From the IMG/VR virus record IMGVR_UViG_3300047667_000596, positions 1-26,018 of that record: 26,018 nt of DNA, one strand, 5' to 3'. Position numbers and translations under genes: made by a program. The notes beneath the pieces are model-generated. The model saw only the letters and a program-made list of their open reading frames with translations, had not been told where the DNA came from and did not search any database. This DNA comes from a virus. Below are positions 4,574 through 22,526 of the stretch, in pieces. Numbering within the stretch: position 1 is the first letter of the stretch; each line of letters opens with the position of its first letter.

Positions 4574-4747
4574 CTAAATATTCCAGTTGTCGGGATCGAT
4601 ACAATCTGACTCACCCCACGTACATACGCCGCACATATCCCACCGATTAATTTCTTTTCCTTCGCTATTAATCAAGGTTACTGTCGGTGACTGCCCGCAG
4701 TTGTCGCACTCTGTACTGTAGCAAGGTTCGAAAGTTTCGCTGTTCAT
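4574..4747 (-). CDS. 57-residue zinc-ribbon-like protein
   Basis: A short gene starts MNSETFEPCYSTECDNCGQS. Two CxxC pairs (C14-x2-C17 and C39-x2-C42, in MCGVCTW) spaced by about 21 residues form a probable single zinc ribbon. It starts in a TAATG overlap with the upstream gene, and AAGGA sits 7-8 nt ahead in the coding end of that gene. Proteins like this are common in phage accessory operons, but no function is established. A nucleic-acid or protein-binding role is inferred. Confidence 0.72.
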   Translation of the reverse strand: MNSETFEPCYSTECDNCGQSPTVTLINSEGKEINRWDMCGVCTWGESDCIDPDNWNI

Positions 4748-5202
4748 TACTTAACTTCCTTTAGTGCTTTAACTTCTTCTGCTCTGGTCTGGTTTAATCC
4801 TTCCTCTAATCCCGCCCAAAAGTCACCTTCACTAAATTCTTCAGTTTGATCATTTAGTGCTTTGGCTTGTAACTGTTTTTTGACACCAAAATTATTAATT
4901 GCTCTAACTGAAATGCATGAATCACCATTTACCCAGTGCGCGTCTATTTCTTGAATAGATTCAAAGCAACCTTTCGCTTGCTGCTCTAGGTTGTGTGCTT
5001 CTAGTATTAAATCAACTTCATCTGAAATTATTTTGCATATTTCATATGTTGATGACATGGCTCCAATTGGCGGCATTCTCTTTATAATAAATGCCGTTAA
5101 AACATTCCGCTCTTTCTCAAGCTCTGCAATGGTCATAATTTGAATCTGCAATATCTCCCATAACTCACTTCTGTTCGCGTCTTTATATTGCTCTAAGCTC
5201 AT
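4747..5202 (-). CDS. Unknown coiled-coil-containing protein
   Basis: This 151-residue protein is not recognised. It begins with a helical, probably coiled-coil segment (residues 1-40, including AELEKERNVL) and ends with charged helices (RAEEVKALKEVK). The last codons carry AAGGA, which serves as the SD for the downstream zinc-ribbon gene, echoing the KEQVK junctions at 5924-6610. AAAGGA precedes its own ATG, and it overlaps the upstream gene by 4 nt (ATGA). It is a soluble accessory protein of unknown role. Confidence 0.72.
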   Translation of the reverse strand: MSLEQYKDANRSELWEILQIQIMTIAELEKERNVLTAFIIKRMPPIGAMSSTYEICKIISDEVDLILEAHNLEQQAKGCFESIQEIDAHWVNGDSCISVRAINNFGVKKQLQAKALNDQTEEFSEGDFWAGLEEGLNQTRAEEVKALKEVK

Positions 5203-5465
5203 GATTTATCCTTTATTGCTTTTAAATCACCTATTGTTGCGCTATTTTTCCATGATTCAGCTAGCTTTGAATCGCCGTCAAGGGAATCTGAATAACCTTC
5301 AATGTAAGATTGAAATACCAAAGCATCTAGCTCTGCAAACCTATTATCCATTTCTACAGCGTCTTCACCCAATTTAACTACCAAGTTCAGCCATTTAGCA
5401 TCGCTTTTCTCAAGCTCTGCAATCTTTTGATTAGCCAACCTTAACGACTCTATATAATCATTCAC
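5199..5465 (-). CDS. Unknown small acidic helical protein
   Basis: The 88-residue protein starts with a likely coiled coil (SLRLANQKIAELEKSDAKW), with an IAELEK stretch shared in style with its neighbours at 4747 and 5924. The rest is acidic and helical (YIEGYSDSLDGDSKLAESW). No recognised domain is seen. It overlaps the small membrane-protein gene upstream and the next gene downstream, so translation is likely coupled. The shared IAELEx motif suggests these small genes arose by duplication or swap of segments. Function is unknown. Confidence 0.68.
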   Translation of the reverse strand: MNDYIESLRLANQKIAELEKSDAKWLNLVVKLGEDAVEMDNRFAELDALVFQSYIEGYSDSLDGDSKLAESWKNSATIGDLKAIKDKS

Positions 5466-5631: not shown

Positions 5632-5927
5632 CGCATACTCACCTTTATCTCTTTAACCCATGTAAAACCCACGCCTTTTGCAAACTCATGACGCCACCTA
5701 ACAAGGCTTATGTTGCGACGGTTTAACACTGCTAACATTGAATTTCTATTCATGCCGTAATGCTGGGCTATTTCTTTTGAGCGAAAACCTTTGATTGTCA
5801 CCATATCCCAGATGTTTCTAATTTCATCATCCCAGAATTTGGTTTGCTCTCTGATAGTTCTTTTTTCTGTGTTTAATATGCGATGCACTTCAAGCTTTTC
5901 ATCATATTCATATGTGCAACTAGTCAC
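5628..5927 (-). CDS. Helix-turn-helix protein, GTG start
   Basis: The 99-residue protein contains a helix-turn-helix-like segment at about residues 44-70 (SKEIAQHYGMNRNSMLAVLN), followed by basic residues (RRNISLVRWRHEF). It resembles GcrA- or homeodomain-type short DNA-binding domains and is a paralogue of the protein encoded at 8325-8561, with shared pattern W-x-M-V-x-K-x-I-x-HYG-x-LxRR. It starts at GTG, with AAGGAG 8 nt upstream inside the end of the preceding gene (junction cassette). It may regulate phage or host transcription; the target is not visible. Confidence 0.75.
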   Translation of the reverse strand: MTSCTYEYDEKLEVHRILNTEKRTIREQTKFWDDEIRNIWDMVTIKGFRSKEIAQHYGMNRNSMLAVLNRRNISLVRWRHEFAKGVGFTWVKEIKVSMR

Positions 5928-6118
5928 TTGACTTGCTCCTTTAGTGCTCTATTTAATTCATGTTGCACTTTGCCTAGCTCCTCGTAGCAATTATCAAAGC
6001 ATTTTTCTAGCTCCCTATTTTCAATTTCAAGCTCTGCAATGCGATTATCTTTATCTGTGTTGCTAAAAGTAACTATGTGACTGCCGTGAGGTAAGCACCC
6101 TATATTTGTTTTATTCAC
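5924..6118 (-). CDS. Coiled-coil small protein, GTG start, KEQVK end
   Basis: The 64-residue protein has a polar N-terminus (MNKTNIGCLPHGSHIVTFSN) and a strong heptad-patterned helix from about 25 to the end (DNRIAELEIENRELEK and on to HELNRALKEQVK). It probably forms a dimeric coiled coil. The last five residues, KEQVK, are encoded by the repeated junction element that also supplies the SD (AAGGAG) and overlapping GTGA start of the next gene. The same element precedes its own GTG start. Function is unknown. Confidence 0.75.
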   Translation of the reverse strand: MNKTNIGCLPHGSHIVTFSNTDKDNRIAELEIENRELEKCFDNCYEELGKVQHELNRALKEQVK

Positions 6119-6306
6119 TTGACTTGCTCCTTAATGCTAGCCTTATAAAACTCATATGTTGCATCTTCGGCTAATTCATCCGTAAGCCTTGTTCTATGCG
6201 TGCCACAAATAGCGCAAAACCTATGCTGTGCGTGACCATCGACAAATGATTCAACGGGTATAGACCAAACTCCCCACACATGAAAACCAAATGAACACCT
6301 GTTCAC
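6115..6306 (-). CDS. Small CxxC protein, GTG start, KEQVK end
   Basis: The frame extends back to 6354, but the supported start is the GTG at 6306: it forms a GTGA overlap with the upstream stop and has AAGGAG 8 nt ahead, exactly as at the three sister junctions. The resulting 63-residue protein begins (V)NRCSFGFHVWGVW and has a CAIC pair near residue 32-35 with a nearby H (HAQHRFCAICGTH). These could bind one metal ion together with H and C residues near the N-terminus. It ends SIKEQVK. Function is unknown. Confidence 0.72.
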   Translation of the reverse strand: MNRCSFGFHVWGVWSIPVESFVDGHAQHRFCAICGTHRTRLTDELAEDATYEFYKASIKEQVK

Positions 6307-6596
6307 TTGACTTGCTCCTTTGGTTGAATCTGCGTTACTGATAAAACAGTCCAACCTTCTAGCAAGCCGTAACTCCCTGCAGGAAGCTTATAATCTACTC
6401 TCACTTTAAGCGAAAACCCTGTATAAAAAAGCGCTTTGCCTGACTTCATTTGCTTGCCCGTAAACTTTGTTTCACGAAGAAAAAGAATATCACCTTCTTG
6501 AAAATTTCTGTCATCCTTTCTAATCTCAAAACTTTTTTTGTTATTCCAGCTTTTTTGGAATACATCAGGGTCAGTTTTTAATTCATGCTCAATCAC
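6303..6596 (-). CDS. DUF3850 (ASCH/PUA-like fold) protein, GTG start
   Basis: The 97-residue protein matches the DUF3850 pattern: an N-terminal H-x-LK (EHELKTDPDVFQ), a K-S-F-E-I-R-K-D-D-R core (about 21-30), a GD plus L/LRE strand (QEGDILFLRET), and a C-terminal beta region (GLLEGWTVLSVTQIQ). DUF3850 belongs to the ASCH/PUA-like group, whose members typically bind RNA or modified nucleotides. In phages it occurs among small accessory genes and its role is open. The GTG start overlaps the preceding stop and uses the AAGGAG junction cassette. It ends in KEQVK. Confidence 0.85.
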   Translation of the reverse strand: MIEHELKTDPDVFQKSWNNKKSFEIRKDDRNFQEGDILFLRETKFTGKQMKSGKALFYTGFSLKVRVDYKLPAGSYGLLEGWTVLSVTQIQPKEQVK

Positions 6597-6829
6597 TTGA
6601 CTTGCTCCTTGCTTTTAAAATTTCCGATTAATTTATAAACTTTGCAGAGTATTACTTTTCCATCTTTGTCAATAGTTGCGCCATCTACGTATCTAAACAC
6701 GTTACCGACTGGGTCTATTAACGCACCCATAGCAACCCATCTAGACACTTGAGTTGGGTCTACTTTGGCATCCATGCAAGCTTTTCTGACGCTTTTAAAT
6801 TCTTTTATTGCTTCTGATACTAAATTCAA
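6593..6829 (-). CDS. Small HTH-like protein (Cro/YdaS style), TTG start
   Basis: The 78-residue protein has a likely helix-turn-helix at about residues 7-33 (KEFKSVRKACMDAKVDPTQ then VSRWVAMGAL), followed by a beta-like C-terminal half (FRYVDGATIDKDGKVILCK). This resembles small Cro- or YdaS-type repressors. It starts at TTG, 2 nt after the upstream TAA, with GGGAG 7 nt ahead. No ATG lies in a better place. It ends in KEQVK, encoded by the junction cassette that starts the DUF3850 gene. It may be an autoregulator; targets are not evident. Confidence 0.68.
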   Translation of the reverse strand: MNLVSEAIKEFKSVRKACMDAKVDPTQVSRWVAMGALIDPVGNVFRYVDGATIDKDGKVILCKVYKLIGNFKSKEQVK

Positions 6830-7049: not shown

Positions 7050-7613
7050 TTACAGTTTGGCTTGTAAAACTTTGGCTTGCTCTTGTAGTGCTGTTATCTG
7101 CTCTTGCAGTAAAGCTAGCTCTTTTTGTGCTGGGCTTTGTTCTGTGCGTTCCCATATACAAATAAGGTTTTTGCCTGCCAAGTGATTTTCTAGACTATCC
7201 ATGCCGTTAACTTTATAAACTCCAACAATGTCGTAGTGAGTATTCCCATCGTTAGCAATAAGATTTTCTCCGTAAAAATTAAGAGGCATTACTGCTCTAT
7301 ATTCAATTAAGCTGCCCCCCATAACTAAGCCATAAAAGCCACTCCTCTGCTTAGTAAAATGAACGCCCGCCTTTAAATCTGATTTAGTAAATTCCATTGT
7401 CTTTCCTAGTAATTGCATCATTTCTGTGTATGTTACAATTTGTGTATAGTCGTCTCCATTCCAAAACCCAGCCCTACTCTCCCAAGTAAAACCTAGTTTT
7501 GAACAGCTTTTACGCCTTGTAAAGTGGCATGTTTTAGGCATAGCATCACGCAGGCTATTAATCTGCTCTTGTGTCAAATCTGATAATCTGCACATTGTAT
7601 TTGTAATATTCAT
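7050..7613 (-). CDS. Unknown 187-residue protein with C-terminal coiled coil
   Basis: The protein is not recognised. It opens MNITNTMCRLSDLTQEQINS, has a globular middle rich in aromatic residues (TWESRAGFWNGDDYTQIV), and ends with a glutamine-rich heptad helix (EQITALQEQAKVLQAKL). Similar tails on small phage proteins mediate oligomerisation. CGGAG lies 6-7 nt before the ATG, within the leader CAAACAAACGGAG that recurs at other genes here. The gene belongs to the leftward accessory operon. Confidence 0.78.
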   Translation of the reverse strand: MNITNTMCRLSDLTQEQINSLRDAMPKTCHFTRRKSCSKLGFTWESRAGFWNGDDYTQIVTYTEMMQLLGKTMEFTKSDLKAGVHFTKQRSGFYGLVMGGSLIEYRAVMPLNFYGENLIANDGNTHYDIVGVYKVNGMDSLENHLAGKNLICIWERTEQSPAQKELALLQEQITALQEQAKVLQAKL

Positions 7614-7637
7614 TATTGCTCCGTTTGTTTGTGAACC

Positions 7638-7838
7638 TTAAAGTTCTTTGCTTAACTCTTTTATTATTGCTTTAATACAATTTTTACACGGTTGGATGCT
7701 ACCGCCGACTGACAAAGCCACGTGCTGAGCATCATTAAAGACAAATTGATGTGGGTTATAATCTTTTTTGCACCACAATGTTGGCCTGTCTAATTTAACC
7801 CCGTTGTCATACTCAAACTTTATTACATGCCTAGACAT
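7638..7838 (-). CDS. Unknown 66-residue cysteine-containing protein
   Basis: The protein begins MSRHVIKFEYDNGVKLDRPT and has a W-C-K-K turn and a C-terminal CKNC pair (about 51-54) followed by a helix (IKAIIKELSKEL). One cysteine (C23), two histidines (H30, H39) and the CxxC pair could bind a metal. A CGGG-containing leader (CAAACAAACGGGA) precedes the ATG. It is the gene immediately downstream of the tRNA-like element. Function is unknown. Confidence 0.72.
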   Translation of the reverse strand: MSRHVIKFEYDNGVKLDRPTLWCKKDYNPHQFVFNDAQHVALSVGGSIQPCKNCIKAIIKELSKEL

Positions 7839-7875: not shown

Positions 7876-7946
7876 GATGACTGGCAGGATTCGAACCTAC
7901 ATAAAAGCCCTATAGCTTGCCATTTTCCAGTTAATGGTACAGTCAT
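7876..7946 (-). tRNA. tRNA-like gene with shortened anticodon arm
   Basis: The minus strand folds as a tRNA: acceptor ATGACTG/CAGTCAT (7 of 7 pairs), T8 and A9, D-arm CCAT/ATGG with GG in the loop, and T-arm GTAGG/CCTGC around the canonical loop TTCGAAT. An extra G(-1):C73 pair extends the acceptor, as in tRNA-His. Between the D- and T-arms there are only 19 nt instead of about 22-23. The anticodon hairpin is AAGC-TATAGG-GCTT, a 4-bp stem with a 6-nt loop, so no normal 7-nt anticodon loop and no clear anticodon can be assigned. CCA is not encoded. It may be a decayed tRNA, a decoy, or an unusual functional one. Confidence 0.6.
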
Positions 7947-8243: not shown

Positions 8244-8282
8244 TTTAAGTTACTTCCTCGTTTGTTTCGCTTCAGTAACTAC

Positions 8283-8311
8283 AGCATAGACACAATCGTC
8301 AATGGTGTCAA
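8283..8311 (-). promoter_or_regulatory. Sigma70-type promoter, twin of the one at 18502
   Basis: On the minus strand TTGACA (8311-8306) is followed by exactly 17 nt and TATGCT (8288-8283). The preceding bases ACATTAGTGTTGACA and the GTGTCTAT before and into the -10 also occur in the plus-strand promoter at 18494-18530, so both may answer to the same regulator. Transcription would start near 8276 and read into the gene at 8243. Confidence 0.75.
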
Positions 8312-8324
8312 CACTAATGTCAAT

Positions 8325-8561
8325 TTAATTTATAAACGACGCCCTAACATAATGAATGCTTCTGTGCTCAGTCCTCCTGAGTGCGTCACCTACATTTGCA
8401 GCAGTGCAGCCGTAGTGGTTGCCGATGTCTTTTAGTCTCATGCCGCAACCTATCATTTGTATTACTGATGACATTCTTTCTGCCCATACGTTTCTGTAGC
8501 CTAGCTTAAGGTCTAGTGATATGTTGTTACGTCTTCGCTGTGACTTCACAGAGTAATTCAT
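8325..8561 (-). CDS. Helix-turn-helix protein, paralogue of 5628-5927
   Basis: The 78-residue basic protein has an HTH-like segment at about residues 40-66 (MRLKDIGNHYGCTAANVGDA) and a flanking basic N-terminus (SVKSQRRRNNIS). Its pattern V-x-M-I-G-x-K-D-I-x-N-HYG-x-A-LRR matches the protein at 5628-5927, which suggests an internal duplication. It overlaps its upstream neighbour by ATGA. The twin promoter lies directly downstream, and its own product is one candidate regulator of that site. This last point is inference. Confidence 0.75.
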   Translation of the reverse strand: MNYSVKSQRRRNNISLDLKLGYRNVWAERMSSVIQMIGCGMRLKDIGNHYGCTAANVGDALRRTEHRSIHYVRASFIN

Positions 8562-9123: not shown

Positions 9124-9320
9124 TTTTTATCCTTCCTTTTTGACTGAAGCTTAAGCGCCTCTTTTATTGCTGTCGTGATTAAAGCAGTTGCCTTGCCCTT
9201 ATAATCTCCACGCTGATAAGATGCAGAGTAATTTTTAACCGTGTCGTTAATAATTCCCACATCAACATTCTTTGAATTTAAATGGGAAACAATTAGTTTT
9301 TTAAATGATTCAAGTTCCAT
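9120..9320 (-). CDS. Unknown 66-residue helical protein
   Basis: The protein begins MELESFKKLIVSHLNSKNVD and is mainly helical with a very basic tail (LKLQSKRKDKK). AAAGG lies 12 nt ahead of the ATG, inside the junction repeat AAAGGTAGAGAAATAATG that also starts the gene at 9604's neighbour. It overlaps the EF-Tu-loop protein gene by one base and the next gene by 4 nt. Function is unknown. Confidence 0.72.
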   Translation of the reverse strand: MELESFKKLIVSHLNSKNVDVGIINDTVKNYSASYQRGDYKGKATALITTAIKEALKLQSKRKDKK

Positions 9321-9619
9321 TATTTCTCTACCTTTTCATCAACATAAATCACACCAGCACCAGCACTTATTGATTTTTGAATCTCTCTTTTAATTTCTAA
9401 GTTTTCCAGCTCACGCACCCGATCCATAGCTGTTTTAAAGCGTTCGTGATCTTCAGGCGTCCACGGGGTCGGGTCTATATAGTCACCTGTTGTAATTATT
9501 CCGGTCTGAACAGATTTTGCAATATTTGATATACCATGATCAATATGCCCAATTGTTCCTACGTTTACATGTTTGTTAATTTTACTTTTTAAATGATTAC
9601 TCATTATTTCTCTACCTTT
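9318..9619 (-). repeat. Two copies of junction element AAAGGTAGAGAAATAATG
   Basis: The 18-nt sequence occurs at 9318-9335 and 9602-9619 (reverse complement). Both copies encode the closing KVEK and stop and contain the AAAGG SD plus the overlapping TAATG start of the next gene. They flank the EF-Tu-loop gene exactly. Confidence 0.88.
9320..9604 (-). CDS. Small protein with EF-Tu-like G1 loop lacking the P-loop lysine
   Basis: Residues 12-24 read HVNVGTIGHIDHG, nearly identical to the N-terminus of elongation factor Tu (HVNVGTIGHVDHG), at about the same distance from the start. EF-Tu continues K-T-T, which binds GTP phosphates and Mg. Here it is I-S-N, so normal GTP binding is not expected. 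The remaining 70 residues are unlike EF-Tu: a proline patch (YIDPTPWTPEDHERF), a charged helix (VRELENLEIKREIQK) and a tail ending DEKVEK. No further G motifs (NKxD, DxxG) are visible. It sits directly after the putative helicase loader gene. Mimicry of EF-Tu or capture of its 5' end is possible; the role is unknown. Confidence 0.75.
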   Translation of the reverse strand: MSNHLKSKINKHVNVGTIGHIDHGISNIAKSVQTGIITTGDYIDPTPWTPEDHERFKTAMDRVRELENLEIKREIQKSISAGAGVIYVDEKVEK

Positions 9620-12905: not shown

Positions 12906-13225
12906 GTTTTAGGCTCCTTTAGTGCGTTAAATTCCTCAACAATTTTGTTGTATGCTGGTACTGGCACAATTAAAACATTGTCGCACGATAGTAGGGATGG
13001 GAAGGCTTCACTAACAGCGATAGATAGCTTTTCAATTCCTTTTTCTAGCTCAACAATACGGTTAACGTCTGCTAGTGAGCGAATAGGATATTCTGGCATT
13101 GTGTTTTTCCAGTTCCACTCACCTTGCTCATTTAACTCACAGTAAATATCATCAAAAAACTTAAACTTGCTATCTACAATTGAAGTGTTAGGTGGCGCAT
13201 TATCTATAATTTCTTGGTCTTTCAT
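12902..13225 (-). CDS. Unknown 107-residue acidic protein
   Basis: The protein begins MKDQEIIDNAPPNTSIVDSK and contains a W-rich patch (NEQGEWNWKNTMPEYPIRSL) and a helical region (NRIVELEKGIEKLSIAV). It ends EEFNALKEPKT, where the codons for LKE carry the AAGGAG SD of the next gene. No family is recognised. It is part of the coupled leftward operon. Confidence 0.72.
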   Translation of the reverse strand: MKDQEIIDNAPPNTSIVDSKFKFFDDIYCELNEQGEWNWKNTMPEYPIRSLADVNRIVELEKGIEKLSIAVSEAFPSLLSCDNVLIVPVPAYNKIVEEFNALKEPKT

Positions 13226-13235
13226 TGTTTTATAC

Positions 13236-13631
13236 CTACCTTATTATTGCTTGAATTACTTCTTCACTAAATGGGATTTCATAACCCTCGTCTTGCATGG
13301 CTCTTATCATCTCAAGCCAGACTTGTTTTTCGTGCCCGAATGTTGAGCGGTATTTACCCGGGTTAGTTGTTCTGTTATATGGGTGCTTGCTCATTAAATT
13401 ATGCAACTCAAATGGAATTGGCATAATAGCTAACTCACCAACACGCCAAGATACGCCGTTAATTTTGCGCTTAGTTTTAGCTCCAAGAATGTGATCGACT
13501 TCAAAAGCTGGTGTTACACCTCTTATGTGTGAATATTTATCTTTTAGCCAGTTTGATTCTTTTGCAAATTCAACTAATGTTTCCATCCAGTCTTTTTCTG
13601 CTTTTGTTTTAACGTGCCCTTTACTTATCAT
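13236..13631 (-). CDS. Putative HNH/Ref-like nuclease
   Basis: The 131-residue protein carries an HNH-like core: FEVDHILGAKTKRK at about 43-56, then GELAIMPIPFELHNLM with a second histidine, and a third region NPGKYRSTFGHEKQVWLEMI. This layout (D-H-I-x-G, P-x-E-L-H, fG-x-E-K) is seen in small phage nucleases and in DUF968/Ref-type recombination proteins. A single-metal endonuclease acting in recombination is inferred, fitting its position next to NinB. The N-terminal region is charged. It overlaps the upstream gene by 11 nt. Confidence 0.6.
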   Translation of the reverse strand: MISKGHVKTKAEKDWMETLVEFAKESNWLKDKYSHIRGVTPAFEVDHILGAKTKRKINGVSWRVGELAIMPIPFELHNLMSKHPYNRTTNPGKYRSTFGHEKQVWLEMIRAMQDEGYEIPFSEEVIQAIIR

Positions 13632-13824
13632 TTGGTATCACCTTAAAGCTGTGTGTTGTGCCTCTCGTCTCTCTGGCATAAACTACACAATCTGTAAATG
13701 TGCTTACATAGCAGTATTGATTTTCGCCGGATATAAACCCAAGCCACATGACATCATCTACTCTGTCCATTGCTTCTTTTAAGCTTAATTCTGATGTGTT
13801 TTCTATAATTATTTTACTTTTCAT
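13621..13824 (-). CDS. Conserved small phage protein of unknown function
   Basis: The 67-residue protein begins MKSKIIIENTSELSLKEAMD, a pattern remembered from many phage accessory regions (KIIIENT-x-E-L, then a GR/GxIS turn and QYCYVSTF strand). It is a compact alpha/beta protein of unknown role. It overlaps NinB upstream by 4 nt and the putative nuclease downstream by 11 nt, so it probably forms part of the same recombination-related unit. Confidence 0.75.
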   Translation of the reverse strand: MKSKIIIENTSELSLKEAMDRVDDVMWLGFISGENQYCYVSTFTDCVVYARETRGTTHSFKVIPNDK

Positions 13825-14315
13825 GATTGACCATCCGCTTTTTGCTTTTCTTTGAAAAATTCAGAGTCCCTTGGTATTAAGAATTTAACGCCCTTATCAA
13901 CCATCCATTGTTCATGCTTTAGACATGCCATAAACCGTTGCCCTTTGTCTGCAACGTTATCACCGGATTTAGACCATGAGAGTCGTTCACCTTCTTTATT
14001 ATTGCCAAGATGCACCGACGTAAACAACTCGTGAGCGTCTTTCTCGTTAAAAGGCCGTTTACCGTACCATTCGCCGCTTGCCTTGGTCATTAAGGGCATA
14101 ACAGAGCCGTTAGCAGCCATAAAATTAGCTGTTGAAGTCATCCAAGACCGCCACAACCTAGACATTCCCCACTTACCTATGCTGCCGTCAAACTCTTCAA
14201 TCGTAACTAAAACAGGTTTATTGCTAGCATTCATAATATCGACAATGGTTGCCCATAATCGCTTGCCATCTTCGCCGCTGGTGGCTCTGTTGATTAGTGT
14301 TGTTTGCTTATCCAT
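13821..14315 (-). CDS. ninB: NinB-like recombination protein
   Basis: The 164-residue protein matches NinB (Orf) proteins: WATIVDIMNASNKPV near the start, a middle RLWRSWMTSTANFMA, then KRPFNEKDAHELFTS (about 100), LSWSKSGDNVADKGQRFM, and a C-terminal helix (DKGVKFLIPRDSEFF). NinB/Orf binds single-stranded DNA and SSB and helps load the annealing step in phage recombination, replacing RecFOR. The phage SSB and exonuclease are encoded in the opposite arm of this window. It overlaps the HAD-like gene by one base. Confidence 0.9.
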   Translation of the reverse strand: MDKQTTLINRATSGEDGKRLWATIVDIMNASNKPVLVTIEEFDGSIGKWGMSRLWRSWMTSTANFMAANGSVMPLMTKASGEWYGKRPFNEKDAHELFTSVHLGNNKEGERLSWSKSGDNVADKGQRFMACLKHEQWMVDKGVKFLIPRDSEFFKEKQKADGQS

Positions 14316-14626
14316 TATTTTAAATCATCCGAGTTTTCACAGCCTATTTTCATGCCGCAAAGGTTTGTATATTTAACAATTGTTTCGGGGCAGTCATCAA
14401 TCCATACGTCAGCTTTAAAGCAGTGCTGCTTCTGTTTGCCTGCTGTGTAAATAATGTCAATTCCTAGACGTTCCGCGTCAGACTCTATATATGCGTTATT
14501 TGCGTTTTCTGGCCTGTAGGTAACAAACGTAACTGAGTGACCTCTTGCCACGCAATGATTTACAAATGCAGTCCATAAAACAGGGTCTTCTGTGTATGTT
14601 TCGTCATAATCTAATGCTATTTTCAT
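14315..14626 (-). CDS. HAD-superfamily phosphatase-like protein
   Basis: The 103-residue protein has the HAD motifs in order: DYDET (6-10) giving the nucleophile D6 and D8, a TF(V)TYR motif II (T36), and a WIDDCPE motif IV (75-81) with the Mg-binding D77-D78. The cap is minimal, as in small 5'-nucleotidase- or polynucleotide-phosphatase-like proteins. It may dephosphorylate a nucleotide or nucleic-acid end. The substrate is not visible. It overlaps YopX and NinB genes by one base each. Confidence 0.82.
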   Translation of the reverse strand: MKIALDYDETYTEDPVLWTAFVNHCVARGHSVTFVTYRPENANNAYIESDAERLGIDIIYTAGKQKQHCFKADVWIDDCPETIVKYTNLCGMKIGCENSDDLK

Positions 14627-15108
14627 TATTTAATCAACTCACTATGCTGGTGTATGTTGCCGACTACTTCCCAAATATTTTGAATCTCACTAGATAATAG
14701 CCATTCATAATCTTCTGGCATATTTACACGCCTTCTTTCATATGGATATTTAACATGGTCTTCAAGTATTTCTTTAATTTGTTTTTGCGATTGGCATGGG
14801 CTTCTGTACCATTCGTACTTATTACTAAACTGAATCACATCCCCCTCATAAATATCAACTCCGTTCTTGTCTTGTAGGCCAGTGAATTGCCCAACAGTTT
14901 CATCAATGACTTTTATAAACGTGGTTTTTAATGAGTACTTACCACCACCTAAACCTGTTCTTATATCTTCCACATCAAGAGGGGTTTCGTTTATAAAACT
15001 ACTAGAAAGTTTCTCGCCCTCACAGCCAAACATTTGTGATTTAATCAAATCGCCATAAACGAAAATTTTAGTTTCTTTGTTTAACCCTCTAAATTTAACC
15101 TGTCTCAT
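14626..15108 (-). CDS. YopX family protein
   Basis: The 160-residue protein has the YopX pattern: opening MRQVKFRGLNKETKIFVYGD, a VDEI/DETVGQFTGLQDKNG strand-turn region (about 88-104), IYEGDVIQF, and a closing segment (IQNIWEVVGNIHQH). YopX proteins are widespread small phage proteins of unknown function. It overlaps the RHH gene stop as TAATG and is the second gene from the leftward promoter, so it should be expressed early. Confidence 0.9.
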   Translation of the reverse strand: MRQVKFRGLNKETKIFVYGDLIKSQMFGCEGEKLSSSFINETPLDVEDIRTGLGGGKYSLKTTFIKVIDETVGQFTGLQDKNGVDIYEGDVIQFSNKYEWYRSPCQSQKQIKEILEDHVKYPYERRRVNMPEDYEWLLSSEIQNIWEVVGNIHQHSELIK

Positions 15109-15257
15109 TATTTAAACTCCTTGGCATGTAGCTTTAAAACCAATTCGGACATAATCCCAGCCATTGAATAGTCATGTCGGCCATCTTCTCGGCGTTTATC
15201 AGAAAGAGCCTTTAGCTTTGCGTGTATGTTTTTATTTAACTGTACAGATTTGGTCAT
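15108..15257 (-). CDS. Small ribbon-helix-helix-like protein, first gene of leftward operon
   Basis: The 49-residue protein begins MTKSVQLNKNIHAKLKALSD and ends AGIMSELVLKLHAKEFK. A short beta strand (SVQL) followed by two helices with hydrophobic spacing (IHAKLKAL and MSELVLKL) fits the ribbon-helix-helix fold of small repressors such as Arc. It is the gene next to the divergent promoters and inverted repeat at 15294-15335, so autoregulation of both arms is a reasonable inference. A GAG lies about 9 nt before the ATG, and the stop overlaps YopX as TAATG. Confidence 0.72.
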   Translation of the reverse strand: MTKSVQLNKNIHAKLKALSDKRREDGRHDYSMAGIMSELVLKLHAKEFK

Positions 15258-15287
15258 TATTATTGCTCGTTTATTAAGTTAGCCCTA

Positions 15288-15316
15288 ATACTAGCAAGTT
15301 AATTAACATTGTACAA
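15288..15316 (-). promoter_or_regulatory. Leftward promoter
   Basis: On the minus strand TTGTAC (15316-15311), 17 nt, then TAGTAT (15293-15288). Transcription would begin near 15281 and drive the operon starting at 15257. The -35 lies inside the 12-bp inverted repeat's spacer. Confidence 0.75.
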
Positions 15317-15335
15317 TCACTTATAATTAACTTGC
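15294..15335. promoter_or_regulatory. 12-bp inverted-repeat operator between divergent promoters
   Basis: GCAAGTTAATTA (15294-15305) and its perfect reverse complement TAATTAACTTGC (15324-15335) flank an 18-nt spacer containing TTGTACAA, itself an 8-bp palindrome (15309-15316). The site overlaps the leftward -35 and the rightward -35 edge, so one bound protein could control both arms. A second, weaker pair (CACTAA 15335-15340 with TTAGTG 15360-15365) overlaps the rightward promoter. Confidence 0.75.
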
Positions 15336-15360
15336 ACTAATCACAAATGATGTGTATTGT
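15332..15360 (+). promoter_or_regulatory. Rightward promoter
   Basis: TTGCAC (15332-15337), 17 nt, TATTGT (15355-15360). Transcription would begin near 15367 and read into the gene at 15391. It overlaps the right arm of the 12-bp inverted repeat. Confidence 0.7.
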
Positions 15361-15375
15361 TAGTGTTCAATTAAT

Positions 15376-15562
15376 CGGGAGATAAATAAGATGAAGAGAA
15401 ACAAATTTGAATGGACTGCCATATTTTCTATGTTAGCTTTTTTAATAGCCATGTTTTGGTTTATGTTTTCTGGATATCAAGATTGCAACAATGAAGGCGG
15501 TGTTTATGCACGCACATTGTTTTGGTTTACTTGCATTAAATAACGGGAGATAAATAAGATGA
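15376..15562 (+). repeat. Duplicated SD leader (CGGGAGATAAATAAGATGA), two copies
   Basis: The 19-nt sequence CGGGAGATAAATAAGATGA occurs identically at 15376-15394 and 15544-15562, each time ending in the start codon of the next small membrane-protein gene. It includes the GGGAG SD. Confidence 0.85.
15391..15543 (+). CDS. 50-residue single-pass membrane protein
   Basis: The protein begins MKRNKFEWTAIFSMLAFLIA with a basic start and one hydrophobic helix (about residues 9-27, extended by MFWFMFSG), and a C-terminal polar part with two cysteines (YQDCNN and WFTCIK). It is the first gene after the rightward promoter, with GGGAG 9-10 nt before the ATG. Function is unknown. Confidence 0.75.
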   Translation: MKRNKFEWTAIFSMLAFLIAMFWFMFSGYQDCNNEGGVYARTLFWFTCIK

Positions 15563-15717
15563 GTAAATTTATAGTGGGGCTAGGGTGGGTTTTAAGTAAT
15601 TTTGCTTATCAATATATTTCGGGTGATTGTGATTACTCTATTGCAATGGAAAGAAGTTATTTCCAAGTGGTGGCAATGGTGGCGATTTGCTACCTTCCAT
15701 TAAAAAGGAGCAAGTAA
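15559..15717 (+). CDS. 52-residue small hydrophobic protein
   Basis: The protein begins MSKFIVGLGWVLSNFAYQYI, has a polar loop (SGDCDYSIAMERS) and a second hydrophobic stretch (YFQVVAMVAICYLPL) ending KRSK. It is probably membrane-associated. It uses the same SD leader as the preceding gene, and its last codons carry the AAGGAG SD for the following gene. Function is unknown. Confidence 0.72.
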   Translation: MSKFIVGLGWVLSNFAYQYISGDCDYSIAMERSYFQVVAMVAICYLPLKRSK

Positions 15718-15718
15718 G

Positions 15719-16096
15719 ATGAGTGAGATTAAAACAGTAACGCATGAAGGGCAGGTTTATCAGATAGGTAAGCCGTATTTATTTAGCTTTAGTGGGGCAA
15801 CTTGGTTTTACGATAAGTTAATAAATATTGATGCAATCTTTAATTTAAAGCCTTTTGGTACTAAATCTGGAGAATGGAGCTATATAAAAGAAGTCCCTGC
15901 ATCTGAAAGTATGGGCACAATAACACCCGCACCAATAGAGCTTGTTGATGGCGCTGCTTATATGTTTGATATAAACGGAGTTGTAGCTTTAGGTTTTTAT
16001 CGTGAGGATAGAAAATCATTTTTTTCTTGCGGCAATAAAGTTTGCGGGTTAGCAGAAGCTACCGACATCCGTCTAATGACAGTAGGGAGTGAATAA
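15719..16096 (+). CDS. Unknown 125-residue protein
   Basis: The protein reads MSEIKTVTHEGQVYQIGKPY and has two related half-repeats: Y-x-I-G-x-Y-L-F-S-F at about 14-24 and LVDGAAYMFDINGVVALGFY at 76-95. It ends CGLAEATDIRLMTVGSE. Such repeats suggest a small duplicated beta-barrel. AAGGAGCAAGTAAG, the rightward version of the junction cassette, gives the SD. Function is unknown. The next start follows one base after its stop. Confidence 0.75.
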   Translation: MSEIKTVTHEGQVYQIGKPYLFSFSGATWFYDKLINIDAIFNLKPFGTKSGEWSYIKEVPASESMGTITPAPIELVDGAAYMFDINGVVALGFYREDRKSFFSCGNKVCGLAEATDIRLMTVGSE

Positions 16097-16097
16097 G

Positions 16098-16631
16098 ATG
16101 AGTGAACAACAACCAAAAACGCATTACAGGAAAGTATTTAAAAGTGACCATTTAGGGCAAGCAGACCTTGAAGACTTTAAAGAAGATGGCAGCAATCTAA
16201 TTTTTACTGTTGCATACGTTAACCAGGAAATAGGCGCAAAAGTAGCAGGCAAGAAAATAGATGCAAACATAGCGTACTTTGCTGAACGTATTAAGCCGCT
16301 TGTATTGAACGCCACCAACTCCGCAACGATGAAAAAGATAACAGGTAGTGCATTCATCGAAGATTGGCAAAACGTTGTTATACAGCTATACATTGAGCCT
16401 AACGTCAAGATGAAAGGTGAAACTGTAGGCGGTGTAAGAATTAGCCATTTAAAGCCAAAGGTAGCTAAACCCCAAGTTACTAAAGATACAGTTCAGATGT
16501 GGGATAATGCCAAGAAAGCATATAAGCAAGACGGTAATTTTATACGTGTTTTTAAACGTGCCGATATTACTCCAGAAAATCAAAAGCTAATGCTGGATGA
16601 AATAAAATTAGAAGGTGCTGCCAGTGTTTAA
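16098..16631 (+). CDS. Conserved unknown in the recombination operon, next to the exonuclease
   Basis: The 177-residue protein (ATG at 16098, GGGAG 8 nt upstream; a GTG 9 nt earlier is less likely) begins MSEQQPKTHYRKVFKSDHLG. It contains conserved-looking blocks DLEDFKEDG, LVLNATNSATMKKITGSAF and IEDWQNVVIQLYIEPNVKMK, and a basic C-terminal part (KPKVAKPQVTKDT). I remember relatives of unknown function beside YqaJ exonucleases in other phages. Exonucleases of this kind usually work with a single-strand annealing protein; none is recognised in the window, so this protein is a candidate partner. That is inference. Confidence 0.8.
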   Translation: MSEQQPKTHYRKVFKSDHLGQADLEDFKEDGSNLIFTVAYVNQEIGAKVAGKKIDANIAYFAERIKPLVLNATNSATMKKITGSAFIEDWQNVVIQLYIEPNVKMKGETVGGVRISHLKPKVAKPQVTKDTVQMWDNAKKAYKQDGNFIRVFKRADITPENQKLMLDEIKLEGAASV

Positions 16632-17247
16632 CTTTATCGACGTTGAACAAAATAGCGATGAATGGTTCGAGCTTAGAGCAGGTCGATTGACTAGCTCTAA
16701 GCTTGGGGTTGTCATGGCCAATTATGGCAAGGCATTTGGTGAGCCTGCTAAAAAATACGCTGTTAACATAGCCATTGAGCAGATAACAGGTGAACCAATA
16801 CCTAGCACATTTACAAATGCTCATATGGAAAGGGGTCATGAGCAAGAGCCAATTGCGAGAGATTTATACGAAAACAATACATTTTCAGATGTCAGCAATG
16901 GCGGATTTTTTGATTGTGGGTTTATAGGCTGCTCACCGGATGGAATGGTCTATGATGATGGGGTTATAGAAATTAAATCTGTTATAGCATCAGTGCAGTT
17001 TGCTAATGTTAAGCGGGGGTCTGTTGACCCTGCATACTATTGGCAATGTGTAGGAAACCTTAAATTTACCGAACGCAAATGGTTAGACTTTGTAAGTTAT
17101 TCTTCAGAGTTTCCGGTCGATAAGCAACTTTTTGTACACAGAATTTATTCGGCTGATTTGGCCGCTGAATTTGACAAGATAGATACGCGAGTTAATGAGT
17201 TTAAAAAGCTTGTTGCTCAATCAAAAGAAATTATATTAAACAGTTAA
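16624..17247 (+). CDS. YqaJ/lambda-type exonuclease, GTG start
   Basis: The protein has the PD-(D/E)XK exonuclease motifs: an RAGRLTSSKLG helix near 18-28, a GHEQEP acid motif, SPDGM (D near 106) and EIKS (E and K near 116-118). A later SYSSEFPV/QLFVHRIY region completes the fold. It would degrade the 5' strand of dsDNA ends to give 3' overhangs for annealing. The GTG at 16624 is chosen because AAGG lies 8 nt upstream; a GTG at 16615 is possible. It overlaps the upstream gene by 8 nt. About 207 residues is normal for the family. Confidence 0.92.
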   Translation: MFNFIDVEQNSDEWFELRAGRLTSSKLGVVMANYGKAFGEPAKKYAVNIAIEQITGEPIPSTFTNAHMERGHEQEPIARDLYENNTFSDVSNGGFFDCGFIGCSPDGMVYDDGVIEIKSVIASVQFANVKRGSVDPAYYWQCVGNLKFTERKWLDFVSYSSEFPVDKQLFVHRIYSADLAAEFDKIDTRVNEFKKLVAQSKEIILNS

Positions 17248-17508
17248 CTATTAAGGAATAAACATGAAAGACTGGTTTAAGGCCAATGCAATACCACAAA
17301 CTGAAGTAATGTGTGGCGCTGATGTATTTGAAAATGAGATTAAAGCTGCTGGAGTTGGGTTCGCTTGTGAATGGTTTGGGCATGAACACAATGGTCATTT
17401 TGCAAAAGAAACTGTAAACACACTATGCGAACGCGCTGAAATAAATAACCCATACGCACTAAAGAACGGTGAATATGAGCTTCTTCAAGATTAACTATTA
17501 AGGAATAA
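17244..17508 (+). repeat. Duplicated junction leader (TTAACTATTAAGGAATAA), two copies
   Basis: The 18-nt sequence TTAACTATTAAGGAATAA is identical at 17244-17261 and 17491-17508. In both copies it contains the TAA stop of the gene before, an AAGGA SD and the spacer to the next ATG. It flanks the 76-residue gene exactly on both sides. Confidence 0.85.
17264..17494 (+). CDS. Unknown 76-residue protein, flanked by identical leaders
   Basis: The protein begins MKDWFKANAIPQTEVMCGAD and has a GFACEWFGHEHNGHFA stretch (W-F-G-H-E-x-x-G-H) with closely spaced histidines that could bind a metal. It ends YALKNGEYELLQD. No family is recognised. Identical 18-bp leaders on both sides would let the gene be gained or lost by homologous recombination. 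Confidence 0.72.
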   Translation: MKDWFKANAIPQTEVMCGADVFENEIKAAGVGFACEWFGHEHNGHFAKETVNTLCERAEINNPYALKNGEYELLQD

Positions 17509-17509
17509 C

Positions 17510-17992
17510 ATGCACATAGTACACGGCGAATTAAGAAAGGCACCCTACGTTAAATCAGGCGTTGGAAAAGATGGCCAGTCAACAATGTTTATCATTGAGC
17601 TATCAGAAGTAATTAAAGATTACAGGTCTGGTGAAAAGTCATACACTAATTATAGTGCTATGTTATTCGCTTCTAGCCCTGCCCATGTCGATCATTACAG
17701 CAAGACGATAGTGGAAGGCAACTTCATTGTTTTGACTGCTGAAAAGCTTAAAATTGAAGTCAGCGAATGTGGCAAATACACTAAGCTAGCAATGGATAAC
17801 GCAAGGCTTGAAGGCAGCGGGTATATTGCACAACAACAAGGCCAGCAACAACAAGCACAGCCACAACAAAGGCAGGCACCACAACAAAGGCCGCAACAGA
17901 ATCAAGGTTATCAGCAGCCAGCGCAACAAAACCACGCGCCGATGGCAGAACCTAATTTTGACTTTGATGATGACTCGCAGCCGCCTTTTTAA
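17510..17992 (+). CDS. ssb: Phage single-stranded DNA-binding protein
   Basis: The N-terminal part (residues about 1-105) fits an OB-fold: MHIVHGELRKAPYVKSGVG, YSAMLFASSPAHVD and LTAEKLKIEVSE. A glutamine/proline-rich linker follows (about 107-145), and the protein ends in an acidic tail with aromatic tip (DFDDDSQPPF), the element by which SSBs recruit partner proteins. It covers single-stranded DNA in replication and recombination, next to the YqaJ exonuclease and VRR-NUC-like genes. AAGGA lies 6-7 nt before the ATG. At 160 residues it is a usual length. Confidence 0.9.
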   Translation: MHIVHGELRKAPYVKSGVGKDGQSTMFIIELSEVIKDYRSGEKSYTNYSAMLFASSPAHVDHYSKTIVEGNFIVLTAEKLKIEVSECGKYTKLAMDNARLEGSGYIAQQQGQQQQAQPQQRQAPQQRPQQNQGYQQPAQQNHAPMAEPNFDFDDDSQPPF

Positions 17993-18283
17993 ATGTCATT
18001 TCGCAGAGCGGCGCGAGTTGATGACAACCAGTCCGAGGTGGTGGCATGTTTCCGCCGCCTTGGCTGGTATGTGCTTATTATAAGCCAACTAAAGAACTGC
18101 TGTGACATTATTGTATCAAAATCAGGTGAAACTATAGCAGTTGAAATTAAAGACGGTAGCAAACCGCCTAGTGCCAGAAAGCTATCAAAAGGTGAGCAAG
18201 AATTTAAAGATAATTGGCTGGGAAGATGGGAGCTAGTCGAATCAATTGATGATGTAATTAAGCTAAACAGTGCGAGTAAATAA
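17993..18283 (+). CDS. VRR-NUC/PD-(D/E)XK nuclease-like protein
   Basis: The 96-residue protein has a nuclease core: D38 in CCDIIVSKSG, then AVEIKDG with E51 and K53, spaced as D-x12-E-x-K, plus QSEVV near residue 13 as a possible helix acid. This fits small phage VRR-NUC or Holliday-junction-resolvase-like enzymes. It starts directly after the SSB stop with no clear SD, so translation is probably coupled. A branched-DNA nuclease role is inferred from fold and context. Confidence 0.78.
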   Translation: MSFRRAARVDDNQSEVVACFRRLGWYVLIISQLKNCCDIIVSKSGETIAVEIKDGSKPPSARKLSKGEQEFKDNWLGRWELVESIDDVIKLNSASK

Positions 18284-18489
18284 TGCAAATAGAATACGAC
18301 AGGGTCAACAAGATTTATTTGCTGATTAGAGACGGAGAAATTACATATTTCACATCGTTTAAAGTGCGCCCAGGATTTACAGAAATAATCCTGGACGATA
18401 ATTACACAACTGTATTTCACTCTGATAAAGCAACTGAGTTTAATTTGGCTTGGGATTTATTCGCTAACAAGAAACTAATTCATAATTAA
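18283..18489 (+). CDS. Unknown 68-residue protein
   Basis: The protein begins MQIEYDRVNKIYLLIRDGEI and is beta-rich up to about residue 45 (TYFTSFKVRPGFTEIILDD), ending in a helix (FNLAWDLFANKKLIHN). It overlaps the nuclease stop as TAATG. It is the last gene before the second rightward promoter. No family is recognised. Confidence 0.72.
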   Translation: MQIEYDRVNKIYLLIRDGEITYFTSFKVRPGFTEIILDDNYTTVFHSDKATEFNLAWDLFANKKLIHN

Positions 18490-18501
18490 TTCACATTAGT
18501 G

Positions 18502-18530
18502 TTGACAGTGTTGTCTACCGTGTCTATACT
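18502..18530 (+). promoter_or_regulatory. Near-consensus sigma70 promoter, twin of the one at 8283
   Basis: TTGACA (18502-18507), 17 nt, TATACT (18525-18530). The upstream 15-mer ACATTAGTGTTGACA and the GTGTCTAT leading into the -10 also occur in the minus-strand promoter at 8283-8311. A GACA-gtgt-TGTC palindrome (18504-18515) overlaps the -35 and could be an operator. It drives the genes from 18573 on. Confidence 0.85.
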
Positions 18531-18572
18531 CTGTTTATCGAATCAAAACACAGCAATCAAACGGGATTTATT

Positions 18573-18749
18573 ATGAAAACTTTAAACGAAATGCAGAAAT
18601 TATTTATAACTAGCTCAGCATTAAATGCAGGCAAGACAATGGAAGAAGTAGAGGCGCTAATTGCAGCAAAAGAAGTTGAAATTAACAAGCCAAAAAAGCC
18701 AGCTTATAACTGGTCTAACTTCAATGAAAGTGACGACGGTATGATGTAA
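18573..18749 (+). CDS. 58-residue helical protein after a strong promoter
   Basis: The protein begins MKTLNEMQKLFITSSALNAG, has a likely helix pair (EEVEALIAAKEVEINK) and a polar C-terminus (YNWSNFNESDDGMM). CGGG lies 8 nt before the ATG in a CAAACGGGATTTATT leader of the recurring kind. As promoter-proximal gene it may be made in large amount early. Function is unknown. Confidence 0.75.
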   Translation: MKTLNEMQKLFITSSALNAGKTMEEVEALIAAKEVEINKPKKPAYNWSNFNESDDGMM

Positions 18750-18775
18750 GGCATAAGATTTCTTATTCAATCACC

Positions 18776-18789
18776 AGCCCTACGGGGCT
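18776..18789 (+). terminator. Short AGCCC/GGGCT hairpin
   Basis: AGCCC (18776-18780), loop TACG, GGGCT (18785-18789). There is no T-run, so it may be a processing or attenuation hairpin between the promoter-proximal gene and the gene at 18817. A similar AGCCC/GGGCT pairing occurs at 7956-7982. Confidence 0.35.
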
Positions 18790-18816
18790 ATCACAGCAAA
18801 CAAACGGGGTAAGACA

Positions 18817-19308
18817 ATGAGTAAATTTAAAGTAGGTGATGAGGCTAAAGTAATAGGTACAAATTCAATGTTAAATTCTGAAATTAAAATTGGTGATATA
18901 CGTGTGGTGACTAACATTTGTTTAAATGGAGTTGAGCTAGATAGCATTGGCGGTGGATGGATACATGATTATGATGTTGAGCTAGTCAAACCCAAATGGA
19001 CAATATACAACAACACATTACCTTGGTCAGATTTGAGCGATAAGCAGAAGGGTAAAATGCTGTTAGCTCAACTGGAAGGTGTTTCTATTAGGCTAGTAGC
19101 AAAATCTATGTGCGGTGAAGACTGCTTTATTCATTGCGAAGAAATAGACACAATTGAAACTGTTGTCTATCGCGCAAAACCAGCGCCAGTAAAGCCAGAG
19201 CCAACTATGGCAGAGTTGTTTATTGACGATTGGAAAGAATGCAGCTCAAGCTCTAGCGAAGCTTTTGCAGGCAAGATGATTGCTAAAGGATGGGTAAAGA
19301 AATGTTAA
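18817..19308 (+). CDS. Unknown 163-residue protein with SH3-like start
   Basis: The N-terminal 55 residues look like a small SH3/KOW-type barrel (FKVGDEAKVIGTN, IGDIRVVTNICLNGV, GGGWIHDYDVELVK). The middle holds LPWSDLSDKQKGKMLLAQ and two cysteines (GEDCFIHCEE). A proline-rich linker (KPAPVKPEPT) leads to a C-terminal helix ending KGWVKKC. The leader CAAACAAACGGGG precedes the ATG, as at several other genes. Function is unknown. Confidence 0.75.
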   Translation: MSKFKVGDEAKVIGTNSMLNSEIKIGDIRVVTNICLNGVELDSIGGGWIHDYDVELVKPKWTIYNNTLPWSDLSDKQKGKMLLAQLEGVSIRLVAKSMCGEDCFIHCEEIDTIETVVYRAKPAPVKPEPTMAELFIDDWKECSSSSSEAFAGKMIAKGWVKKC

Positions 19309-19598
19309 ATTCACCAATTGACAACAGCATACAAGAAGCGGCAAGAGATGAGCTTATTTCTCAGCACTGGGATGAACTGCAAACAACTGGCCAAACTATC
19401 TTTATTAGCGATATAGAAAAAAGAATCATTAATCGTGATGATGTTATGTTTGATGTGATGGGCGATATGGGTGATAAGAAATTGTATCACGATATGGTAG
19501 TTACTCCGGTGTCGTTTAGCATTAGAGTGCAAGCGGCATTCAAACTGCGCATTGATAAGTTAATGGCTGATGCGATAAACGACTACTATGAAATATAA
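19302..19598 (+). CDS. Unknown 98-residue helical protein
   Basis: The ATG at 19302 is chosen because GGG lies 7 nt upstream and it overlaps the previous stop by 7 nt. The ATG at 19290 has AAAGG directly abutting it. The protein begins MLNSPIDNSIQEAARDELIS and is rich in acidic and M/D residues (DDVMFDVMGDMGDKKLYHD), with a helical C-terminus. No family is recognised. It overlaps the next gene by 11 nt. Confidence 0.72.
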   Translation: MLNSPIDNSIQEAARDELISQHWDELQTTGQTIFISDIEKRIINRDDVMFDVMGDMGDKKLYHDMVVTPVSFSIRVQAAFKLRIDKLMADAINDYYEI

Positions 19599-19809
19599 CA
19601 GCGATGTTGAGATGCTTAACGATGCATTATCATATGCAAAGCTGCATCTAAAGCGGTCACGCAAAGACATTGCCAAGATTTCTGGTGTGAAATACGACAC
19701 TATTGGGCTTTGGTCGCTGAACAAAAGCAGGCCAACTTCCTTTATGCTTAAATCAGTCATCAGCGCATGTGGTTATCATGTTAGTTGGGATATGGAGAAG
19801 AAAAAATGA
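19588..19809 (+). CDS. Cro/XRE-like helix-turn-helix protein
   Basis: The 73-residue protein contains an HTH of the XRE/Cro kind at about 24-50 (RSRKDIAKISGVKYDTIG then LWSLNKSRPTSF), followed by a helix and a short strand (CGYHVSWDMEKKK). It could act as a small transcription regulator; no cognate operator is assigned. The SD is weak, suggesting coupling with the upstream gene. It overlaps the next gene by ATGA. Confidence 0.78.
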   Translation: MKYNSDVEMLNDALSYAKLHLKRSRKDIAKISGVKYDTIGLWSLNKSRPTSFMLKSVISACGYHVSWDMEKKK

Positions 19810-19955
19810 GTAAATTTCATTGGGAACGAGTAGATATTAAAGAAGCTGTCAGGCTGCGTGATAAAGAGTTTTTTACCATTGGCGAGTTAGCAGATAGATT
19901 TAGATGCAGTCGTGACCACGTTGAACGGATGCTTAAATCTGAGGGCCAATTGTGA
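19806..19955 (+). CDS. 49-residue HTH protein
   Basis: The protein reads MSKFHWERVDIKEAVRLRDK, then an HTH EFFTIGELADRFRCSRDHVE, ending RMLKSEGQL. The segment TIGELADRFRCSRDHVERML is a compact recognition-helix motif. It starts in an ATGA overlap and its stop gives a GTGA overlap with the methyltransferase start. It probably binds DNA as a dimer and may control or assist the neighbouring genes; this is inference. Confidence 0.75.
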   Translation: MSKFHWERVDIKEAVRLRDKEFFTIGELADRFRCSRDHVERMLKSEGQL

Positions 19956-20554
19956 GGGTTTTAGTCGCTTGTGAATATTCTGGGCGTGTTCGTGATGCGT
20001 TTAGAAAGCTTGGGCATGACGCGATGAGTTGTGATTTATTGCCTAGTGATAGCCCTTTACTTGGCTGTCATTATCAGGGCGATGTATTTGACATTATAGG
20101 TGATGGTTGGGACTTAATGATTGCTCACCCGCCTTGCACCAGATTGGCTAATAGTGGCGTTAGGTGGTTAAGAGAGCGCGATTTATGGGATGAACTTGTT
20201 GAGGCAGCAAAGTTTTACAACAAGTTTCAGCAATGCACAATAAAGATGAAATGTATAGAAAACCCAATTATGCACAAATATGCAAAAGCTATGGTAGGTG
20301 ACATTAAAAGACAAGTAGTTCAGCCTTGGTGGTTTGGTGAAAAAACATTTAAAGCGACAGGGTACGAGCTAACCGGATTACCTGATTTAGTAGCAACAAA
20401 TAAATTAAACATCCCAGAGGTTGGGACTGATGAACATAAAAAATGGAGTTGGATACATAGAGCATCACCTAGCCCTGATAGATGGAAAATAAGAAGCACA
20501 ACACCACAAGGCATTGCTAATGCTATGGCCGAACAATGGGGCGGTCAGCTGTGA
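19952..20554 (+). CDS. Minimal C5-cytosine-methyltransferase-like protein, GTG start
   Basis: The 200-residue protein has motif I (VACEYSGRVRDAF, 5-17), motif IV-like HPPC (59-62), ENP (103-105, in place of the usual ENV) and a C-terminal RSTTPQGIANAMAEQW like motif X. The large target-recognition region is almost absent. A GFHDAMSC region with D28 (CDLLPSD) would contact SAM. It may methylate cytosine with low specificity or be a related nucleobase-modifying enzyme. It lies in the opposite arm from Dam. The start overlaps the HTH gene stop as GTGA. Confidence 0.78.
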   Translation: MRVLVACEYSGRVRDAFRKLGHDAMSCDLLPSDSPLLGCHYQGDVFDIIGDGWDLMIAHPPCTRLANSGVRWLRERDLWDELVEAAKFYNKFQQCTIKMKCIENPIMHKYAKAMVGDIKRQVVQPWWFGEKTFKATGYELTGLPDLVATNKLNIPEVGTDEHKKWSWIHRASPSPDRWKIRSTTPQGIANAMAEQWGGQL

Positions 20555-20685: not shown

Positions 20686-20769
20686 TTGAATAGGTGATTT
20701 AATAACTCAGTAGGTCGGGTCATTCATTCCCTAACTCCCAAGTTTTGCAACTCCTACGAACCGCACCCT

Positions 20770-21266: not shown

Positions 21267-21267
21267 T

Positions 21268-22499: not shown

Positions 22500-22526
22500 T
22501 TTAATATCCTCTTGTTGTTTACTTGT

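Follow-up and report, generated by a model that had tools for sequence, protein, structure and literature searches.

In lambdoid phages, short conserved sequences at the joints of exchangeable genes, known as boundary or linker sequences, are described as proposed sites of homologous recombination (Susskind and Botstein, 1978; Clark et al., 2001, for HK620; both as cited in PMC3029335), and the same source states that such boundaries are not identifiable at most phage mosaic joints (PMC3029335). In the comparison of Island3 with Brujita, the consecutive Island3 genes 67 and 68 share coding sequence at their 3' ends (~50-60 bp) and the relative has one recombinant copy, a case of gene insertion or loss by recombination at coding 3' ends (PMC3029335, Fig. 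5C). The Cluster K SAS (consensus GGGATAGGAGCCC), a 13-bp repeat situated 3-7 bp before the start codon, mostly ATG, has been read as a translation signal (PMC3203893), and integron-type attC arrays also occur in phages (PMC9892861). Behind these cases stands the old question of whether mosaic joints are products of recombination at short boundary sequences that the genomes share or of random joining and subsequent selection.

The DNA analysed here (hereafter the window) is the whole 26-kb (26,018-nt) stretch of the IMG/VR virus record IMGVR_UViG_3300047667_000596, derived from an uncultured phage. A search of the whole window returned four exact copies of the 18-mer AAGGAGCAAGTCAAGTGA on the minus strand (5924-5941, 6115-6132, 6303-6320, and 6593-6610), against 0.01 matches per window expected by chance from shuffles with up to three mismatches permitted; as an earlier note on this DNA had claimed, each copy lies at one of four successive gene borders. 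In the direction of transcription, the gene order is N - ASCH - 63 aa - 64 aa - HTH - TM, and the features of the block are as follows.

6593-6829, minus strand: gene N (MNLVS, 78 aa, TTG start), the conserved left flank; homologues in L012 (97% nucleotide identity), L110, and L004
6593-6610, minus strand: border copy 1, exact match to AAGGAGCAAGTCAAGTGA; end of N gene and start of ASCH gene; identity to L012 ends within it, at 6602
6303-6596, minus strand: cassette gene for an ASCH/DUF3850 RNA-binding-type protein, 97 aa (Pfam PF12961, E=3.9e-19)
6303-6320, minus strand: border copy 2, exact match; end of ASCH gene and start of 63-aa gene, with KEQVK-stop and GTGA
6115-6306, minus strand: cassette gene, 63 aa, Cys/His-containing; an ORF between borders, no family match
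6115-6132, minus strand: border copy 3, exact match; end of 63-aa gene and start of 64-aa coiled-coil gene
5924-6118, minus strand: cassette gene, 64 aa, coiled-coil-like; an ORF between borders
5924-5947, minus strand: border copy 4, extended to 24 nt (GCACTAAAGGAGCAAGTCAAGTGA); joins the end of the 64-aa gene to the start of the HTH gene; identical 24 nt twice in L004
5628-5927, minus strand: HTH-like gene (REQTKFWD..), the conserved right flank; homologues with different neighbours in L012 and L004

We consider it probable, at about 70%, that this repeat, 18 to 27 nt long in its various forms, is a gene border within coding sequence that these phages share by descent and that acts as a translation-ready recombination joint. 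The reading frames of all four copies bear out the proposal that one sequence supplies a C-terminus, a Shine-Dalgarno sequence, and a start at once: the codons AAG GAG CAA GTC AAG TGA give the KEQVK-stop of the upstream ORF, the final GTGA is a 4-nt stop/start overlap whose GTG opens the downstream gene, and the AAGGAG (Shine-Dalgarno) within the 18-mer lies 8 nt ahead of that GTG. Homologues outside the border start with ATG, so the GTG belongs to the standard unit, as had been suggested. Eighteen nucleotides is the extent common to all four copies; the copy at 5924-5941 alone extends to the 24-nt form, which is also present in relatives. The further copy that the earlier note had placed in the rightward arm (15705-15715) stood up only in part, as the site at 15705-15722 matches at 15 of 18 bases, 11 of them contiguous, but lies in another frame (KRSK-stop, then ATGA) and is thus weak, at most half a cassette, and not a proper one.

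Several simpler accounts of the repeat were rejected. The products of the N, ASCH/DUF3850, 63-aa, 64-aa, and HTH-like genes are not homologous, which removes tandem gene duplication and agrees with the earlier claim that the genes between the borders are unrelated; the nearest phage homologue of the ASCH/DUF3850 protein aligns only with residues 4-87 and has no KEQVK tail. Protein constraint on KEQVK does not account for variants that alter the amino acids (KEKVK, KEQGK, RGQVK, REQVK) while codons stay fixed across unrelated genes, and an RNA hairpin is contradicted by folding at the borders that is no stronger than in shuffles (z -2.0 to +0.2).

The window border goes a step beyond both the lambdoid boundary sequences and the Island3 case. 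As in lambdoid phages, a short sequence is conserved between otherwise unrelated genes and relatives differ in the genes between conserved boundaries, but the joint in the window lies inside coding sequence, carries a Shine-Dalgarno sequence and a start, and is repeated at four junctions in a row within one genome. Consecutive genes with a common coding 3' end at the DNA level (18 nt in each of the four window copies, 27 nt in G014) recall Island3, which, however, represents one event in one genome pair, whereas the present case comprises many copies and several types of border spread over at least five phages, with no near-isogenic pair. The Cluster K SAS is likewise a short, lineage-specific, AGGAG-containing repeat just ahead of the starts of unrelated genes; the window border differs from it in sequence, in being in-frame coding, in preceding GTG, in the distance of AAGGAG from the start, and in being tied to gene turnover. 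New here are the within-genome repetition, the in-frame coding, the merging of a gene end with a ribosome site and a start, and the occurrence of several border types in one phage group.

The likeness to the SAS raises the alternative that the repeat is a translation element, kept identical as a favoured initiation or coupling site and having no role in gene exchange. Such a reading would suit the AAGGAG 8 nt ahead of the start, the start that always follows the repeat, a second border copy in L005 (1153-1171) that falls outside the upstream gene, and a different viral contig, L128 (830-3935), in which up to six AAGGAGCAAGTKARATGA-like copies, resembling a start-associated repeat, precede starts, one of them without upstream coding context. 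We nevertheless regard it as unlikely, given that the bases between the Shine-Dalgarno sequence and the start and the codons upstream of it (GCACTA) are conserved too, that the same phages share coding linkers (IAELEK, HNLEQQA) far from any start, that folding at the borders is unremarkable, and that most other junctions of the phage have no border. A site-specific cassette system of the integron attC kind, or a binding site for a protein, for instance a stoperator, is highly improbable: the repeated sites do lie between genes in the same orientation, as in cassette systems, but the shared 18- to 24-nt sequence has weak folding, always keeps its coding register, and shows neither a GTTRRRY box on either strand nor a palindrome, features whose absence directly contradicts an attC array.

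The distribution of the border fits a coding joint inherited within one lineage. Besides the window's own record, exact 18-mers were found in IMG/VR in a near-identical record (UViG_3300049783_000574, with the same four border copies and 99.99% identity across the window's left half), in L004 and L005, which represent one distant relative from two data sets, and in L003. All nine exact copies on these four contigs lie at gene junctions, in agreement with the expectation that the 18-mer is confined to them. When 2.9 million viral contigs were searched with a codon-degenerate ALKEQVK-stop pattern, every match belonged to this phage group, so that a motif common across viruses is rejected, and the pattern had zero matches in 257 Gb of bacterial and archaeal genomes; matches to the looser pattern AGGRGCAAGTNAARTGA were mostly unrelated singletons. 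In L003, a 204-kb contig in which no further likeness was detected, 21 nt of the border (CTAAAGGAGCAAGTCAAGTGA, 2475-2495) occur at a junction with LKEQVK-stop and the GTGA overlap, which may reflect chance, convergence, or transfer. In G014, 27 nt are common to two successive junctions; in L182 (UViG_3300047666_000595) the successive junctions at 6031-6057 and 6396-6422 hold 27 identical bases, AAAGCACTAAAGGAGCAAGGCAAGTGA. Comparison of the near-identical record (L146) with window positions 13595-26018 gave 98.3% identity in the right half as against 99.99% in the left, the differences being concentrated on the right.

Gene content varies between the same flanks while the boundary is kept, as the earlier note had predicted. 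Between N and HTH there are three genes in the window, one in L012, and none in L004; in L110, N is fused. The order in L012 is N - MSLMSK - HTH - MMLKV - TM, with DNA identities to the window of 97% for N and 92% for HTH, and ahead of this same HTH gene stands GCACTAAAGGAGCAAGTCAAGTGA with one mismatch, although the preceding genes differ. In L004, N is followed directly by HTH and then by four more border-type junctions, while in L110 N runs on through AAGGGGCAAGTCAATG, a mid-gene border remnant, into an IAELEK segment that ends in ALKEQVK/GTGA ahead of yet another gene. Two similarity breakpoints fall inside the border. The window sequence follows that of L012 as far as ...AAAAGCAAGGAGCAA, after which the two diverge (GTCAAGTGATTGAG / TCATGAGTTT); this breakpoint, 6602|6601 in window coordinates, lies nine bases into the border, has 0 mismatches in the preceding 39 nt, and could simply be the natural end of N. 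L016 and L012 are 98% identical over 223 nt up to AAAGCRCTAAAGGA and then diverge inside the border (L016 236 | L012 6193, 1 mismatch).

These breakpoints also bear on the possibility that the border is a hitchhiker, the end of a neighbouring gene dragged along by illegitimate recombination or local duplication, so that the copies would be the fossil of a recent duplication and not a site of exchange. Runs of similar junctions are indeed adjacent and phage-specific (KVGV and GWKR in the phage of L019, ALxEPKL in L151, LREGV in L152), and L016 and the window part company near the TM start codon, at a place without a detected border-type element. This explanation is rather improbable, as at least five distinguishable phages of the group have this border, and have it at different genes, breakpoints lie inside it, and a hitchhiker is not expected to be so precisely trimmed to the junction. 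Neither a near-isogenic phage pair differing by one bordered gene nor a near-isogenic empty site was found; the near-identical record, the only one overlapping the region, keeps all four copies and so supplies no relative with a single recombinant copy as in Island3. Neighbours were retained in 0 of 16 comparisons at junctions with a detected element and in 11 of 54 at junctions without one, hence changed in 16/16 versus 43/54 (p=0.058, the comparisons not being independent). Since element-free junctions often change neighbours too, the border is not required for change and would be at most one route of it in a generally fluid region.

Shared gene ends are not limited to this one border. Among 259 called genes of ten related contigs, exact matches of at least 13 nt between non-homologous genes numbered 431, of which 65 coincide with the stop codons of the two genes (0.69 expected), and those of at least 16 nt numbered 122, with 50 at both stop codons (0.26 expected). 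When gene-end pairs of one genome with at least 11 nt in common, in register, are counted as self-similar, the window has 9 (longest 19) and the phage of L005 has 7 (longest 24), whereas the named controls, comprising lambda, HK620, and four relatives by terminase, have none (lambda, HK620, the Aeromonas phage, and the Alteromonas phage), one (the Vibrio phage), or two (PHS3), in no case longer than 11 nt. Likewise, none of 22,281 gene-end pairs from 114 other viral contigs, a non-random sample chosen for the loose motif, reached 16 nt, and a general property of phage gene ends is rejected on both comparisons. Most of the long matches between non-homologous genes stem from a few elements, namely the ALKEQVK border, two elements in the phage of L019 (GGGATGGAAACGATGA and AAGGTAGGTGT..), and the following second border and coding linkers; the second self-similar junction and the partial and diverged borders listed here were overlooked in the earlier note.

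9602-9619, minus strand: second border AAAGGTAGAGAAATAATG (KVEK-stop, TAATG overlap), a 15-16 nt end common to 6 genes in 3 phages
9318-9335, minus strand: second copy of this border, at the junction next to 9602-9619
12913-12925, minus strand: partial border GCACTAAAGGAGC, a 13-nt match in register, close to where the MKDQEI/IRSLAD gene ends
4747-4767, minus strand: diverged border GCACTAAAGGAAGTTAAGTAA (ALKEVK-stop); the homologous L004 gene ends ALKEQVK/GTGA
5113-5130, also 5406-5423, minus strand: internal coding linker ATTGCAGAGCTTGAGAAA (IAELEK), with codon sharing among IAELE genes
4975-4995, minus strand: internal coding linker CACAACCTAGAGCAGCAAGC (HNLEQQA), 8 genes, codons near-identical
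13067-13084, minus strand: internal coding linker ATTCGCTCACTAGCAGAC (IRSLAD), 3 genes, codons identical

The AAAGGTAGAGAAATAATG border also ends genes in L012 and L005, and the six KVEK-stop ends are identical in codons. All 13 IAELE genes of the group begin the linker with the identical codons ATTGCAGAGCTTGA, MKDQEI is a further coding linker, and the linker-bearing genes are otherwise unrelated. It is conceivable, if still tentative, that border types and coding linkers (IAELEK, HNLEQQA, IRSLAD, MKDQEI) with near-fixed codons make up a "construction kit" of this lineage, from which whole genes and gene parts are assembled by phage recombination as a selected property of the accessory region. 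More distant relatives have similar successive junctions of their own, L152 at 1401-1640 (LREGVK/LREGVN) and L151 at 7370-7704 (ALREPKL/ALKEPKL), and the habit may be general in this group.

The large terminase has 70-75% identity to its counterparts in Aeromonas, Vibrio, Alteromonas, and Pseudoalteromonas phages. The small block genes that were searched, the ASCH/DUF3850 gene excepted, have no relatives among 50,697 named phage records, and the HTH, N, HNLEQ, and IRSLAD proteins none in named phages. A tRNA-like sequence at 7876-7946 (minus strand) scores 31.3 bits against an Rfam gathering threshold of 29, with a shortened anticodon arm and no call by ARAGORN, and a 63-nt imperfect inverted repeat (75%; 8263-8325 and 18488-18550) lies between the leftward and rightward gene arms. 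The rightward arm also contains an SSB-like gene (17510-17992, weak match) alongside a candidate recombination enzyme:

16615-17247, plus strand: YqaJ/lambda-exonuclease family nuclease (Pfam PF09588, E=4.6e-19; TIGR03033 below cut-off)

An annealing protein was sought and none was identified, the predicted structure of the protein before the exonuclease reaching a pLDDT of only 33.

For the translation-ready joint, the following course may be envisaged. The border would unite the last codons of one small gene, the Shine-Dalgarno sequence, and the overlapping stop and start into an interchangeable unit, across which the two genes may be translationally coupled; because this is a complete hand-over, any two copies would be interchangeable, and any upstream half joined to any downstream half would leave both frames and the ribosome site intact. 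Crossovers from border to border, homologous or driven by microhomology and probably aided by the lambda-exonuclease/YqaJ-type system of the phage, could then add, remove, or exchange entire accessory genes harmlessly, each captured gene bringing its border along. The model predicts sharp trimming to the junction, a GTG that travels with the border, varying content between conserved flanks, and breakpoints inside the border, all of which are seen. Minimum pairing lengths are given as 23-27 nt for Red-beta and 31-34 nt for RecA (PMC3945230); the 18-mer is shorter than either, and only the 24- to 27-nt forms, including AAAGCACTAAAGGAGCAAGGCAAGTGA in L182, reach that of Red-beta, so these forms fit better. 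The plug-in architecture put forward in the earlier note thus holds with respect to the content differences and the two breakpoints, while for its second part, swapping by recombination, the crossover site is presumed to be the border and the nuclease is a candidate enzyme.

A border that closes one gene and at the same time supplies the ribosome site and start of the next would explain how small accessory genes can be exchanged without harm to their neighbours. As the boundary here is visible, repeated in one genome, codon-exact, and lineage-specific, it makes the question of how mosaic joints arise directly testable.
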